DNA of 64,000 bases, taken from the NCBI GenBank assembly GCA_938045805.1, contig CALIBL010000096.1, positions 1-64,000 of the forward strand. Direction: 5' to 3'. Positions 33,363-39,338 of this stretch are shown one piece after another. The position numbers were made by a program, and so were the translations under genes. Numbering within the stretch: the stretch's first letter is position 1; each line of letters opens with the position of its first letter. The notes under the pieces are model-generated. The model worked only from the letters and a program-made list of their open reading frames with translations. It was not told where the DNA came from and did not search any database. Origin of the DNA: an uncultured Rubripirellula sp. Its GTDB lineage: Bacteria; Planctomycetota; Planctomycetia; Pirellulales; Pirellulaceae.

Positions 33363-34607
33363 ATGGCGGACGAGTCGTTCCGATTTCTGCATGCCAGTGA
33401 TTTTCATCTCGAACGTCCTTTGACCGACCTTGATGATCTTCCCGATTCTCTGCGTGATACGATTCTTCAAGCACCGCGGTCAGCGGTTTCTTCGCTCGTC
33501 GATGCTGCAATATCCGAAGACGTTGATTTTGTGATCTTGTCCGGTGATCTTCTTCAGCCACAATCGGCGGGGCCATATGGAATTTCATTGTTACTCGAAG
33601 GTTTTGATTGTTTAAGAGAAGCCGGCAAGCAGGTTTATTGGGCTGCGGGCATCGTTGATGATGAAGATCTTTGGCCGACAGCTATCAACCTTCCCGAGAA
33701 CGTCATCGTTTTTCCGAAGACCCAAGCACAGTCAATAACGACTCGCAGAGCGGAGCAGCCTCTTTGTCGAATCGTGGGGCGTAGTTGCGATGGAAATGCT
33801 GCGGTAGATGTCCCAAGTTTCAAAGTTGATTTTTCAAACCTATTTACGATCGGTGTCGCTTACGGGCAGGTCACTGCTGAGACGCTATCGGAGTGTCAAT
33901 TTAATTATTGGGCGTTGGGGGGAAGTCATCAGCGATCGATTTATGAACATCCAAGTGGTTGGGTTGCCGCCTACTGTGGGACTCCGCAGGGACGATCACT
34001 TGACGAGGTTGGTGAACATGGATTTCAAATCGTGGAGGTTGATGGGGATCGGTCAATCAGAGTTCAACATCGGAACGTTGATTCATGTTGCTACTGCCGC
34101 GTGGCACTCAACGAGCAAGAAATCGTATCGATGGGTGGTATCGAGAATCTGATTGGCGACAAAATTTATCGATTACAGAACGAACATGGTTCTCAGCATT
34201 TACTGATTGCTTGGGAACTCGAGTTATCGGATCCTGAGAAACTCGGAGCGATGAAAGACCTTGAGCACGTCTTGGACTGGGCGCGTCGAGAATACGGAGC
34301 GGGAGAACCAGCGGCTTGGTCACTATCGTTGACCCTCCGATCACCTGATCTCTACCCCAAAGCGTGGTGCGAGGAGGAAACCATTTTGGGAGATTTTCTG
34401 CGCGCTTCGGCGAAGTACCAAAATGTGGAATCTCGTTCCATCGACCTAAGGCCAATGTTGACTCAATCGCCGCCTCTTCACGCAGCAGTTACTTCGCGTT
34501 TGACCGAACTTTCTGAATCTGAGTTACGTGACGCGTTACAGAACGCGACAAGAGTTGGTGTGGAATGGTTGCGTGGTGGTGCCGCCGATGGGAGGCAACT
34601 CGGATGA
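33363..34607 (+). CDS. SbcD/YhaO-like metallophosphoesterase, metal site degenerate
   Basis: 414 residues. The N-terminal part has the calcineurin-like fold of SbcD/YhaO nucleases: FLHASDFHLERP (Asp13, His15) and FVILSGDLL (Asp62). The next motif, GNHD in active enzymes, reads GIVD (96-99), and the GHxH motif reads GGSH (186-189); the earlier His site around 167 reads Tyr. Several metal ligands are therefore gone, so hydrolysis is doubtful. GGAG lies seven bases before ATG 33363. The stop overlaps the ATPase start as ATGA, the arrangement of sbcD-sbcC and yhaO-yhaN pairs involved in DNA end processing. It may serve as a DNA-binding or structural partner of the ATPase. Confidence 0.85.
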   Translation: MADESFRFLHASDFHLERPLTDLDDLPDSLRDTILQAPRSAVSSLVDAAISEDVDFVILSGDLLQPQSAGPYGISLLLEGFDCLREAGKQVYWAAGIVDDEDLWPTAINLPENVIVFPKTQAQSITTRRAEQPLCRIVGRSCDGNAAVDVPSFKVDFSNLFTIGVAYGQVTAETLSECQFNYWALGGSHQRSIYEHPSGWVAAYCGTPQGRSLDEVGEHGFQIVEVDGDRSIRVQHRNVDSCCYCRVALNEQEIVSMGGIENLIGDKIYRLQNEHGSQHLLIAWELELSDPEKLGAMKDLEHVLDWARREYGAGEPAAWSLSLTLRSPDLYPKAWCEEETILGDFLRASAKYQNVESRSIDLRPMLTQSPPLHAAVTSRLTELSESELRDALQNATRVGVEWLRGGAADGRQLG

Positions 34608-37600
34608 GAGTCAAAGAGATACAGATCGATGGATTCGGTGTGTGGACCGGGCTTTCGGTTGAATCGCTAAATGAGAACATGACTCTGTTTTACGGCCCCA
34701 ATGAAGCCGGTAAAACGACGTTGATGCAATTCATCCGAGCGATGTTCTACGGGTTCTCTGGGGATCGGACTGCACGTTATTTTCCGCCCGTCTTTGGAGG
34801 GCCTCACGGAGGAGCGATCCGGATCGCCGGGGATACGGGCGGGTACACGATCCGCCGACACCATGAACCGGTCGGCGATCAGCACCAAGAGCAAGTTTCA
34901 GTCATTGGGCCGGGGGGAGCTCAGCGAGGACAGCAGCAGCTTGACACTTTGCTTGGGCCGATTGATGAATCAATCTTTACCAATGTGTTTGCCATTGGAT
35001 TGAGAGAGTTGCAAGAACTGAGTTCCCTCGATGACACGGAAGCAGCAGACGAACTCTACAAACTCTCAACAGGTCTTGATCGTGTTTCACTGGTGGAGGT
35101 GATGCGAGGACTGAACCGTTCTCGTTCGGATTTGATTGGAACGGCCGATGGAACGGCTTCGGGTTCGGAACATTCTCTCCGGCAACTGCTCACCAAACGC
35201 GAACGTCTTCGGAATGAAGTGCAGTCATTGATGCTTGGCAGCCAGCGGTGGGTCGAGTTGGCGACCAAACGGCAGACACAAGAAAAAGAGATTCACCGAT
35301 TGGTTGAGCGAGTGAGTTCTCTGGAGCAACAAGCACGTTGTGTTGAGGTTGCGACAAGTGTCTATGAGACTTGGTGTCAAAGGGACGAGCTTTCCAAGCG
35401 AATAGACATTCTGTCAGCTGAGCCGTCACTTCCTGATGATGCCCCCAAGCGTTTGAACGAGATTGAATCACAAATCGAGCAGCAACGGTTCAAGCTTGAT
35501 GAGATCAAGGAGAAACGCAGGGAGATTCGGGTTCAAGCCGAACAGTTTCCGATTCATCGTAAATTGCTTGAATTAAAACCGGGGATTGAGTTTGCAGCAC
35601 AGCAGGTTCCATGGATTGAGACTATAGAAGAGCAAATTCGGATGCTCGGTGAGCAGTTGAATTCCATTCGCGATCAACTGCAGCAGGACGCGGATCGATT
35701 GGGCTTCAGCCAACTCGATGATGTTGCATCCTCCGGTTCCGCTCTTCAGTCCTTGCCCACCCTCTCTCGCAAATCCATCGCATCACTTGCTGATCCGGCG
35801 CGGCGAGTGAAGCAGCAGTTGTTCCTTTTGCGGCAAGCAAGATCGCAAGCCAAAGAGTATCAGGAAGAGGTGGATCGTCTAGGGACCAAGCTCTCGCGGA
35901 CTCTTGAGCGGGCCTCGGCAGAGGATCTGCAGCATGCGATTCGTCAGCAGACCGCCGAACTGAAAAAACTGCGAGACCGAGTTCAAGTTGGCGAAAGGCT
36001 GCATCAGTTAAAGCAGCAGTTTCGCGAGTTGGATCAGGAGACGGTTGAACTAACGACTGCAGAGGCCCTGCCGGTCGATCGTTTGGTGCTGTTGGCCGTG
36101 CCATTTGTGTTTGGTTCCATGGCGGTCATCTACGGCGTTGCTCATCTGCTGAACCTGAATTTCTTAGTTGACCAACCCGATTCAACCTGGGGCATGCTGT
36201 GCGTGTTGATGGGAGCGATCGGATTGCTTCTGTTTCATTTTGGGAGGGAGAGTGGCCAGCGGCGAACGGAAACGGATCGCGAAAATTGTGAACGTCAGCT
36301 GGTTTCAATTCGAAGGCAGATCCGCGAATTGGAGTCAGAAGCACACGGACTTGATTCGCAGATCCCACCGAGGGAGGAATCTTTAGAGCTGCGTGTAAGG
36401 GAGAAAGAAGCATTACTCGATGAGCTGGAATCTACCCTGCCTCTTTACCATCAACACGAGGCGGCAAAACATTCCTGCAAGCTTGCGAAAAAGCGAGCAC
36501 ACATCTCGGCAAATGAATTGAAGAAAGCTCGCGAGTTATGGTGTGATGCTCTTGAGTCGATTGGCCTCAGTCGTTCGATGCCGCCGACTAAAGTTAAATT
36601 GCTAAGCGGGAATTACGAGCAATTGCAAACCGGCATCAGGAGAATGAAGGAGCTGGAGAGCGAACAGCAAATGCGTCAAAGCGAGCGAAACGCGATTGCG
36701 AAGAACATCGATACGCTGTACCAGCAGGTGATGCATTCAACGGAAAGAGAACGACTCCGTGATGCTGAAACCGTTGTCGGTAATCTGGAAATCCAAATGG
36801 GAATTCGGGATCGGCAGGATCCTCTAGAGCAATTGAATTACTTGCAAGAGGGACTTGCTCGTCAGTCACATTGGATCAAGCTCAGGGGTGAACTCAAAGA
36901 AGAAGACCTGCAGCTAAAGAGGCAGCAATCCGCGTCAAGTCGAGCCATTGCGTTGGCCGAACAGCAACGTATCGCATTGTGGACAAAATGTGGTGTCGAA
37001 TCGGCAGAGGAATTTTACGAACGTTTGGATTTGAAATCGGAATTACACGACTCCGTCGAGCAACGTGATCAACTTGAGCAGACGATCACTAAAATGATCG
37101 GGGCACGTATCGAACGCTCACAGGTTCAAGCAGAAATTGATGATGCAACACCCGAAGACCTTGAAAATCGCTGGGAGGGTTTGACCGAGAAGATCAGTGA
37201 AACCGAGTCGATCATTTCCACATCGCGTACGGAGTTAGGCGAAATCGGTCAGGAGATGAAGTTTCTCGCTGAAGATGCAACCTTGGCGACTCGCCAACTC
37301 GAATTGGCCTGCGTCGAACGTAAGATCGAATCGGAGGTCAAACGTTGGCAGACATTGGCGTTGGCGAGTTTTTTGCTCGATGACGTCTGCACCACCTTCG
37401 AACGAGAGAGGCAACCGGAGACACTGCGTGAAGCGTCTGGGTTCCTTGATCAGCTTACAAACGGCAAGTACCACCGAATTTGGACAAGCCTTGGAACGAA
37501 TCAGCTTCACGTCGATGATCGGGCTGGTCGAACCCTTGAGATTGATCGACTGAGTCGAGGGACTCGAGAGGCTGTCTTCATCGCTTTAAGACTTTCGCTA

Positions 37601-38605
37601 ACGGCTGTCTACGCACGGCGCGGAGTGAGGTTGCCGTTGGTGTTGGACGATGTGCTTGTCAATTTTGACGGTGATCGAGCTGCTCACGCAGCTAAAACCT
37701 TGGATGCTTTTGCCAAGAGAGGCCACCAGGTTTTGATGTTCACCTGCCACAGGCACATTGTTGAAATCTTTCAGTCGATCGGCGTGGAGACACGGATCAT
37801 GCCGCCCCATGGCCAACCGGGGCGTGCGGAGATTTCGGATGCTCCCATCACCACTCCAAGTGTTCCTGGTGGTACATCCATCACGAGTGCCCTGTCGCCC
37901 GACCATTCTTTGGATAACCCACCGAGCAATGAGACAACTGACTCGGAGGCGGCGAAGTCTAATTTAGGTGAAATAAAGACTGAAGATGAGTTCACTCCGC
38001 CTGACACCAATTTAATATCTTCGGAAAGCACCGCTGAGGTTACTGAAGTTGCTAATGCACAACTCACTTTCACTGATTTTGATACTGCAGCACCGAAAGA
38101 AGAGAAAGTCGGTGTTGCTGAAATCGGTCGGGGCCGTGAGCAGGCGGTCGAGTCGACTTCGTCCGATGATCCCCAGTTCAAGCCTCCAAAATCAGTGGGA
38201 ATCACTTGGGCTTGGTTCGAGAAGGAACCTTCGGAGATGCTTAGGGAGGTCGAGAAGTCATCGATAGGTGATTCAGATTTTGAAGCATCTGAGGAAGAGG
38301 TTCGAAGTGACGATGCCCCACGTGAAGAATCGCTATCTCAGGAACCGCTCCAAGCCAAGTCAATTGATCCATTAAAGACGCACGAAGAGTCGAGTCCCAC
38401 GGCCGAAGTCAATTTGGATTCCGCTCATAGCATTTCGACAGTAGACCATGTTTTAGATGTGGACTCGTTATGCGAAGGCGGTGGAGCGAGCGAAAGTGAT
38501 CTGCTGATTCAAGAAGATAAAGTCACCAAGTACGAGGATGAGGACGCTGAGTACGAGGATGAGGACGCTGAGGATAGCGATGAAGAGCAGCAAGATGTTG
38601 CCTAG
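34604..38605 (+). CDS. YhaN/SbcC-like SMC-type ATPase with internal membrane helices and acidic tail
   Basis: 1333 residues from ATG 34604 (an upstream ATG at 34565 lies in the previous gene). N-terminal ABC half: GPNEAGKTTL at ~29-38. Long coiled coils follow, then two likely membrane helices at ~490-547 (LVLLAVPFVFGSMAVIYG and MLCVLMGAIGLLLFHFG), further coiled coil, and the C-terminal ABC half with signature LSRGTREAVF (~982) and Walker B LPLVLDDVLVNFD (~1010). After ~1065 comes a ~265-residue low-complexity acidic tail ending in a duplicated EYEDEDA element. YhaN-type proteins resemble SbcC but are shorter in the coil and lack a zinc hook; none is seen here. It is likely a membrane-attached DNA-repair or chromosome ATPase. 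Confidence 0.88.
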   Translation: MRVKEIQIDGFGVWTGLSVESLNENMTLFYGPNEAGKTTLMQFIRAMFYGFSGDRTARYFPPVFGGPHGGAIRIAGDTGGYTIRRHHEPVGDQHQEQVSVIGPGGAQRGQQQLDTLLGPIDESIFTNVFAIGLRELQELSSLDDTEAADELYKLSTGLDRVSLVEVMRGLNRSRSDLIGTADGTASGSEHSLRQLLTKRERLRNEVQSLMLGSQRWVELATKRQTQEKEIHRLVERVSSLEQQARCVEVATSVYETWCQRDELSKRIDILSAEPSLPDDAPKRLNEIESQIEQQRFKLDEIKEKRREIRVQAEQFPIHRKLLELKPGIEFAAQQVPWIETIEEQIRMLGEQLNSIRDQLQQDADRLGFSQLDDVASSGSALQSLPTLSRKSIASLADPARRVKQQLFLLRQARSQAKEYQEEVDRLGTKLSRTLERASAEDLQHAIRQQTAELKKLRDRVQVGERLHQLKQQFRELDQETVELTTAEALPVDRLVLLAVPFVFGSMAVIYGVAHLLNLNFLVDQPDSTWGMLCVLMGAIGLLLFHFGRESGQRRTETDRENCERQLVSIRRQIRELESEAHGLDSQIPPREESLELRVREKEALLDELESTLPLYHQHEAAKHSCKLAKKRAHISANELKKARELWCDALESIGLSRSMPPTKVKLLSGNYEQLQTGIRRMKELESEQQMRQSERNAIAKNIDTLYQQVMHSTERERLRDAETVVGNLEIQMGIRDRQDPLEQLNYLQEGLARQSHWIKLRGELKEEDLQLKRQQSASSRAIALAEQQRIALWTKCGVESAEEFYERLDLKSELHDSVEQRDQLEQTITKMIGARIERSQVQAEIDDATPEDLENRWEGLTEKISETESIISTSRTELGEIGQEMKFLAEDATLATRQLELACVERKIESEVKRWQTLALASFLLDDVCTTFERERQPETLREASGFLDQLTNGKYHRIWTSLGTNQLHVDDRAGRTLEIDRLSRGTREAVFIALRLSLTAVYARRGVRLPLVLDDVLVNFDGDRAAHAAKTLDAFAKRGHQVLMFTCHRHIVEIFQSIGVETRIMPPHGQPGRAEISDAPITTPSVPGGTSITSALSPDHSLDNPPSNETTDSEAAKSNLGEIKTEDEFTPPDTNLISSESTAEVTEVANAQLTFTDFDTAAPKEEKVGVAEIGRGREQAVESTSSDDPQFKPPKSVGITWAWFEKEPSEMLREVEKSSIGDSDFEASEEEVRSDDAPREESLSQEPLQAKSIDPLKTHEESSPTAEVNLDSAHSISTVDHVLDVDSLCEGGGASESDLLIQEDKVTKYEDEDAEYEDEDAEDSDEEQQDVA
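38531..38572. repeat. Exact 21-bp tandem duplication in acidic tail
   Basis: The 21-base unit starting TACGAGGATGAGGACGCT is present twice in a row, 38531-38551 and 38552-38572. It encodes a seven-residue YEDEDAE unit at the end of the YhaN-like ATPase. The identity at DNA level implies recent slippage; copy number may vary between strains. Confidence 0.95.
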
Positions 38606-38690: not shown

Positions 38691-39338
38691 TTGTTTCGAC
38701 AGATTTACCAATGGATAGAATCCAAACTTCCAACGAATCGCCCGAGTGATCTTTCACAATCGCTAGGTCAGGATGGGGCTCTAGGCGAGGCGGGGCATGT
38801 TCGCTTGCGTTGTCGAGTTCAGTTTCCCAAGAAAAATGGTTCACCGCGTTCGCCGTTACCATCGGTCACGGGATCCGTGGTGTCCATTCATGCAGCGACG
38901 ATTTATCAGATGTCTCTGCGACGTCTAAAACTCTTCTCTTCGAAGCGTTGTCAGCAATTGGAAAAGTTGGGCATCGATACGGCTGGAGCATTGGTCGATG
39001 CTGATCCATATTGGATCGCAGGACATTTTTCCGCCAAGAAGAAAGCCGAACGATCGATTCGGCATTACCAGCAAGCCATCCGAGTTGCCGCATCGGTGCC
39101 GGAAATGTTGCCGCATCACGCGAGCCTTCTTTTTCGTATTCATCGAAAACACCGGAAAGGTTTGGCTGCCGAGACTCCGACAAAGTTATTTCGAGATTTA
39201 CAACGTTATTCAGAAAGTACCTCCGGTAGAAAGCACCTGCGGGGAGGAGCTTTACCGCCGGTGGAACGAATCAAAGTCTGGATTGACCACTGTGCAAAAA
39301 CCGAGAGCTTTGAGTTTCAGCAAAGTATGGCTGGGTAG
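38691..39338 (+). CDS. DUF4332-like protein
   Basis: 215 residues. The TTG start at 38691 is supported by GGAGG eight bases upstream. Residues ~75-150 read as helix-hairpin-helix-like DUF4332: LRRLKLFSSKRCQQLEKLGIDTAGALVDADP, with the 'L-x-x-L-G-I-x-T-x-x-x-L' pattern of nonspecific DNA- or protein-binding helical hairpins. The N and C termini are basic and unassigned. No signal peptide, so cytoplasmic. It follows the SbcD/YhaN-like pair by 85 bases on the same strand and could be co-transcribed; a DNA-related role would fit but is inference. Confidence 0.7.
   Translation: MFRQIYQWIESKLPTNRPSDLSQSLGQDGALGEAGHVRLRCRVQFPKKNGSPRSPLPSVTGSVVSIHAATIYQMSLRRLKLFSSKRCQQLEKLGIDTAGALVDADPYWIAGHFSAKKKAERSIRHYQQAIRVAASVPEMLPHHASLLFRIHRKHRKGLAAETPTKLFRDLQRYSESTSGRKHLRGGALPPVERIKVWIDHCAKTESFEFQQSMAG

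Follow-up and report, generated by a model that had tools for sequence, protein, structure and literature searches.

A clade-wide degenerate SbcD/YhaO-like subunit paired with a putative membrane-anchored Rad50-like ATPase in planctomycetes

The closest described counterparts of the genes analyzed here are the SbcCD/Mre11-Rad50 complexes and, in Bacillus, YhaO-YhaN (SbcEF). In Bacillus, the yhaONM cluster is described as containing an SbcD-like gene together with a gene for an SMC-like ATPase, and SbcE/YhaN appears as an SMC-like protein of double-strand-break repair (Krishnamurthy et al. 2010, as cited elsewhere). The zinc hook of Rad50 is described as a dimerization module (PMC6969161), and yeast Mre11-H125N as an engineered nuclease-dead mutant (PMC7260605). 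A parallel is reported for the fungal Dis3/RNase II pseudonucleases (PMC8097288), in which catalysis was lost and the protein kept for another role; these are likewise retained non-catalytic relatives of nucleases, although they belong to an unrelated family and have an RNA-binding role.

The window, that is, the whole stretch of 64,000 nucleotides that was analyzed, carries a gene pair related to these systems and a third gene downstream on the same strand. The features are as follows:

33363..34607, plus strand: degenerate SbcD/YhaO (Mre11-like) subunit of 414 amino acids (aa), an open reading frame (ORF) with an ATG start; it has lost the catalytic His and the metal-site-2 ligands and kept those of metal site 1.
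34604..38605, plus strand: Rad50-like ATPase of the YhaN/SbcE type (AAA_27), 1333 aa from a conserved ATG, with a 4-bp ATGA overlap with the subunit gene.
36083..36244, plus strand: predicted transmembrane hairpin of two helices, located midway along the ATPase coiled coil (residues 494-547 when numbered from the ATG at 34604) and called from hydropathy and K/R bias.
38691..39338, plus strand: DUF4332 protein of 215 aa, beginning 85 nt past the ATPase stop (DUF4332 match at 2e-12); the domain is fused to such an ATPase in another family, f21.

As in SbcCD and Mre11-Rad50, a protein of the phosphoesterase-type sequence family is paired, gene next to gene, with one that has split ABC-type heads and a long coiled coil. 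Unlike those complexes, the pair in the window lacks a complete two-metal site and a CxxC hook, and a membrane hairpin is predicted in mid-coil. The likeness to YhaO-YhaN of Bacillus lies in the clustering of an SbcD-like gene with one for an SMC-like, AAA_27-type ATPase; the planctomycete subunit differs in being without nuclease motifs, the Bacillus proteins being compared by description. Bacillus YhaN presumably carries annotated membrane segments. Our preferred reading, to which we give a probability of roughly one half, is that the subunit is a non-catalytic part of a membrane-anchored, Rad50-like ATPase complex that acts on DNA.

In the 414-aa ORF, motif I reads ASDFHLE and motif II LSGDLL, so that DxH and GD are present, while motif III reads AAGIVDDED, with GIVD replacing GNHD, and motif V reads WALGGSHQR, with GGSH replacing GHxH. 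An earlier note on this DNA had read all four motifs in the same way. In motif IV, a Tyr (IGVAY, Y167) replaces the His, the intact copy in the same genome having VGLLH. The register of the motifs was set by flanking residues (YWALG-x-x-H-x-R and G-x-x-D). In Pyrococcus Mre11, we take metal site 1 to consist of D8, H10, D49, and H208 and metal site 2 of D49, N84, H173, and H206. When the family profile was compared with Pyrococcus Mre11 (1ii7) in HMMER and the equivalences were read off by counting along the alignment, I97/V98 corresponded to N84/H85, G187 to H206, H189 to H208, and D62 to D49. The subunit in the window has lost the equivalents of N84, H173, and H206 (metal 2) and of the catalytic H85, and its site-1 set (D13, H15, D62, and H189) is complete. 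The claim in the earlier note that the two-metal site is broken therefore stands, with the refinement that the site is halved rather than erased: on the aligned residues, at most a one-metal site is left. We infer that the subunit has no nuclease activity; some metal binding or chemistry may persist through the retained site-1 ligands.

The catalytic His of the same motif is changed in nuclease-dead Mre11 mutants, namely H125N of yeast and the Pyrococcus protein of PDB entry 3dsd, whose sequence reads GNSD; yeast H125 we take to be equivalent to the catalytic His of GNHD. Laboratory mutants of this kind serve to separate DNA cutting from DNA holding. The change was engineered there and is natural and clade-wide here.

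Profile comparisons relate the subunit to its intact counterparts over its length. Alignment with an intact-YhaO profile (hhalign) gave a probability of 100 and an E value of 2.7e-60 over 399 columns, covering both the phosphoesterase and the C-terminal parts, and Mre11 in the PDB was matched at 2.8e-10 with the family profile, compared with only 0.44 for the single sequence. The intact paralogue matches PF00149 at 2.3e-14; a Pfam scan of the degenerate subunit returned no match at 1e-3, and its scores were below the cut-offs of the curated nuclease models TIGR00619 (24.1 bits, cut-off 77.65) and Mre11_Halo (29.6 bits, cut-off 550). A search for relatives among viral contigs found none. An AF2 model of the subunit built from 2 sequences had a mean pLDDT of 38 and was set aside.

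The subunit query had matches at 1e-15 in 186 of the 199 genomes of the family Pirellulaceae, a few of which may be intact paralogues. Rows for alignment were picked by hand, mostly one per genus, from matches to the degenerate query or to alignment A1, and they lean toward degenerate copies in the family. The 142 rows comprise 44 with all five motifs and 98 degenerate ones, of which 97 lack both motif III and motif V and one (L169) is intermediate; the "intact" class, like the "hairpin" class used below, is defined by our own motif and hydropathy cut-offs, so that uniformity within either class follows from how it was defined. His at the H85 column occurs in 0/60 Pirellulaceae rows (window included) and in 0/21 rows that represent 16 further families of this order, and the counts for the H206 column are the same (0/60 and 0/21). 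Asn at N84 is present in 2 of the Pirellulaceae rows and 0 of the other same-order rows, and His at H173 in 23 and 10, respectively. In this alignment of orthologues, which the earlier note had proposed as a check, the losses at H85 and H206 are thus common to all 81 rows of the same family or order. Orthologues with full motifs, which the note had named as a refuting outcome, did not turn up, and its reading of a non-catalytic role is supported. Local mutation or assembly error was discarded, since an independent record (L032, the metagenome-assembled genome Rubripirellula sp. MOX_bin56, 81% identical and, as the closest record with a name, the basis for the family names used here) and the sampled family carry the same changes.

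The degenerate pair is present in 17 families of the order and in family f21, which is of the same class and probably falls within Planctomycetales. Site 1 is eroded as well in f21, being complete in 0/15 rows. Two near-identical f21 rows (L125 and L131) carry GQHD, with His at the position of H85, and their motifs I, II, and V are broken. All subunit matches fetched from f6 (L104) and from f111 to f115 were of the intact kind, and in families f8 and f112 most of the genomes listed had no subunit match at the cut-offs used. Family f8, of the same order as the window, is largely without the gene: 15 listed genomes had no match at 1e-15, and there was one weak match at 3.1e-19.

At the site-1 columns, D8 is kept in 55 of the 60 Pirellulaceae rows, H10 in 51, D49 in 49, and H208 in 43, and all four occur together in 42; the corresponding counts for the 21 other same-order rows are 18, 16, 15, 15, and 14. 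If the columns were independent, the single-column fractions would predict about 27/60 complete sets in Pirellulaceae, an expectation uncorrected for relatedness. Such joint retention would fit continued enzymatic activity, in which the subunit acts as a one-metal phosphodiesterase or phosphatase through D13, H15, D62, and H189, with a changed substrate or rate. However, the catalytic His and the metal-2 ligand H206 are absent from 81/81 rows, and the pair persists where the full site 1 is missing, namely in 18/60 Pirellulaceae and 15/15 f21 rows. A one-metal enzyme seems to us unlikely, and the non-catalytic subunit remains the preferred reading.

The ATPase gene adjoins the subunit gene in 60/60 Pirellulaceae loci and in 21/21 other same-order loci (L056 is cut by a contig end). 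Partners were scored by script for 89 of the 98 degenerate rows; the window was scored apart, and seven more partners were found adjoining by tblastn, which covers all the degenerate rows but L169. The distance between the two genes is -4 in 16 of the 57 script-scored Pirellulaceae loci and lies between -120 and +150 in all 57. In the window, the subunit stop (34605-34607) overlaps the ATPase start at 34604 as ATGA; the longest ATPase ORF begins at 34565, and most orthologues begin at the Met equivalent to its M14 (34604). The protein matches AAA_27 (PF13514) at 6e-12 with 46 bits (cut-off 22), and its Walker A (GPNEAGKT), signature (LSRGTREA), and Walker B (LVLDDVLVNFD) motifs are intact, at about residues 44, 996, and 1025 in the numbering of the long ORF. 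The overlap with an intact SMC-type ATPase gene, also described in the earlier note, is thus borne out. The PADLOC LmuB profile matches residues 18-476 of the ATPase at 2.6e-12, which would fit a Lamassu-like SMC defense system. In contrast, no PADLOC match at 0.01 was found on the degenerate subunit or the DUF4332 protein, and the presence of a subunit match in nearly the whole family (186/199 genomes) is unlike a mobile defense system, so a defense function appears very improbable.

No CxxC (zinc hook) is present in the ATPase of the window, and a hydrophobic hairpin occupies that place instead; this predicted membrane hairpin in the partner tells more about the pair than the motif losses in the subunit do. 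Among the script-scored Pirellulaceae partners, 57/57 have at least one hydrophobic segment above 1.6 within residues 380-680. Of the 86 partners of degenerate subunits assigned to the hairpin class by our cut-offs, 58 have a second helix that scores above 1.6, and in 85 it scores above 1.0. The coil arms on either side are similar in length, with medians of 454 and 416 aa (82 of the 86 partners), and K/R make up 4.2% of the hairpin loop compared with 12.9% of the flanks, the flank being higher in 75/86 partners. By this hydropathy argument, the profile fits membrane insertion at the coil apex with both the N and the C terminus inside.

Trees were built quickly, with SH-aLRT support only, and are unrooted with several long branches; most Pirellulaceae rows were omitted to limit size, and L129 because it aligned poorly. 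In the subunit tree (99 rows, active-site columns removed), 53 degenerate rows fall on one side of a branch with an SH-aLRT of 95, leaving L178 and L169 outside. The tree of the ATPase heads (78 rows), which draws on no nuclease sequence, contains the same split, with 47 degenerate rows and a support of 93 (not starred), again with L178 outside. Intact pairs without the hairpin form a separate group with a support of 99 in both trees. Copies with full motifs from the same genomes as degenerate ones (e.g., L089 and L171) sit elsewhere in the subunit tree and are therefore paralogues.

The simplest reading, with which the trees are compatible, is that the degenerate group began with one main loss, after which site 1 eroded lineage by lineage. 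A single clean loss is not upheld, because L169, in which GNAD stands for GNHD and GHVH is kept, represents a separate partial loss; this locus (L169:653-2326) comes from outside the class. Another locus from outside the class, L178:611-2224, has the same changes as the clade of the window (GLVD and GGYH) and a hairpin ATPase. Grouping L178 with the degenerate rows also gives one side of a branch, with a support of 59, and its state may reflect convergence, transfer, or a deep shared loss.

Relative to L032, the subunit gene has a dN of 0.121, a dS of 0.95, and a dN/dS of 0.128, a ratio that is approximate at so high a dS. The value is 0.140 for the N-terminal 250 codons and 0.109 for the C-terminal 164 codons, and the partner ATPase has 0.124. 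Selection on the subunit gene is purifying, in agreement with the view in the earlier note that selection seems to keep a non-catalytic role. These ratios also bear on the idea that the gene is decaying and heading for loss. Erosion of site-1 ligands in several lineages, with no complete set in any of the 15 f21 rows, and the near-absence of matches in f8 would be expected of such a gene; however, neither the overall dN/dS nor the still lower C-terminal value is, and the degenerate pair has been kept in the 17 families of the order and in f21. We find decay scarcely credible.

The DUF4332 protein is read as being of the helix-hairpin-helix type because the HHH_5 and Cdd1 profiles match the same stretches. 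In f21, the near-identical L125 and L131 carry DUF4332 at the C terminus of the hairpin ATPase of their degenerate pair. Among the sampled loci of the family, the gene was seen next to the pair in the window and otherwise in just two, L032 and L085; 51/57 of the loci extend at least 700 nt beyond the ATPase. A functional link between DUF4332 and the ATPase pair is likely, given the fusions in the other family. Four other f21 loci (L119, L122, L151, and L129) hold a different kind of degenerate pair, with an ATPase-like protein that has a Walker A motif, no hairpin, and two copies of DUF4332; a pattern search of those from L119, L122, and L151 found no signature or Walker B motif. In the genome of the window, which is 94% complete, DUF4332 was found at two loci only, one in the window and one on contig C19. 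The protein on C19 (L192:3874-6705) has 943 aa, is coiled-coil-like without a recognizable Walker A, and ends in two C-terminal copies of DUF4332; the surrounding 14 kb contain no SbcD-like ORF. It is possibly a pseudo-ATPase relative of the partner gene in the window.

In the membrane-anchored complex that we favor, the degenerate subunit would behave like Mre11, dimerizing and binding to the coil base of the ATPase. The two ATP-bound heads would clamp DNA, and the DUF4332 protein might be an additional DNA-binding part. The coil apex would be inserted in the cytoplasmic membrane at the place where Rad50 dimerizes through its zinc hook, and the clamp would be opened and closed through the binding of ATP. 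The outcome would be a reversible tether of DNA to the membrane, for broken ends or for nucleoid organization, rather than a DNA cutter; this role is suggested by the likeness to Mre11-Rad50. The same loss of nuclease motifs beside a predicted membrane hairpin might instead mark a membrane machine with a task unrelated to DNA, such as envelope or stress signaling, re-used after the nuclease was lost. Against such a machine, the head motifs and the pairing are like those of Rad50/Mre11, the DUF4332 domain with its overlapping helix-hairpin-helix profiles is fused or adjoining, and, as a weak indication, dprA lies downstream on the opposite strand. We consider a role away from DNA improbable.

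Many genomes contain an intact YhaO as well. That of the window encodes an intact pair at G000:C5 (GNHD and GHIH) with an ATPase of 1192 aa and no hairpin, and its subunit was matched at 1e-30 in 85/119 genomes of the family. With an intact YhaO encoded elsewhere in the genome, the degenerate protein could be a regulatory or heterodimer subunit that damps or targets that nuclease. To this may be opposed the degenerate gene adjoining its own ATPase gene and the content of genomes without a close intact match. There are 34 genomes with no intact match at 1e-30. Of the 20 of these that were listed, the 14 with a degenerate match better than 1e-45 were searched with an intact-YhaO profile (cut-off 1e-6). 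Eight of them (G001, G011, G012, G023, G027, G054, G059, and G067) yielded the degenerate gene alone; the other six (G010, G021, G025, G033, G044, and G064) also yielded some other or divergent phosphoesterase. Thus, an intact YhaO is not required for the degenerate pair to be kept. A search of 10 genomes with TIGR00619, which covered G059, G011, and G023 of these eight, found a curated-level SbcD in G059 and G010, matched G023 through the degenerate gene alone, and gave no match at 1e-3 in the single-contig genome G011. Partnership with an intact copy as the sole role is weakened by the genomes without a close intact copy, and we rate a heterodimer as quite improbable. In G044, an intact-type YhaO (L197/L220) is seemingly split over two frames and is possibly broken or an assembly error.

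Returning to the tether, a broader proposal can be made tentatively, with the odds leaning somewhat against it. At least one order of planctomycetes, and in more eroded form a second group of families, would possess a nuclease-free, membrane-anchored complex of the Mre11-Rad50 kind dedicated to tethering DNA to the membrane, with the coil apex as the anchor and the former nuclease as a structural subunit of the clamp; it would be the sole YhaO-type complex in some genomes, and elsewhere ATPase motifs would have been lost and DUF4332 added. A literature search that covered few subscription journals found no description of such a system among the matches listed. Mre11-Rad50 both cuts and holds DNA, and here evolution appears to have split the two functions across a whole clade and retained the result. 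The pair therefore offers a natural system for asking what DNA holding does alone, in many cases in a genome that also carries an intact paralogue, and a lead on possible DNA-membrane attachment in planctomycetes.

The hairpin also occurs in 8/31 scored partners of intact subunits and is absent from 23/31. All eight of these intact rows come from outside the class and lie outside the degenerate group, which makes the hairpin either older than the loss of the nuclease or independent of it. Four loci from outside the class (L133, L134, L135, and L174) combine intact YhaO-type motifs with a hairpin ATPase of the YhaN type and may represent a membrane-anchored version that is possibly still a nuclease. 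At a further locus, L137, a single contig carries two intact pairs of YhaO and hairpin YhaN, separated by about 10 kb.
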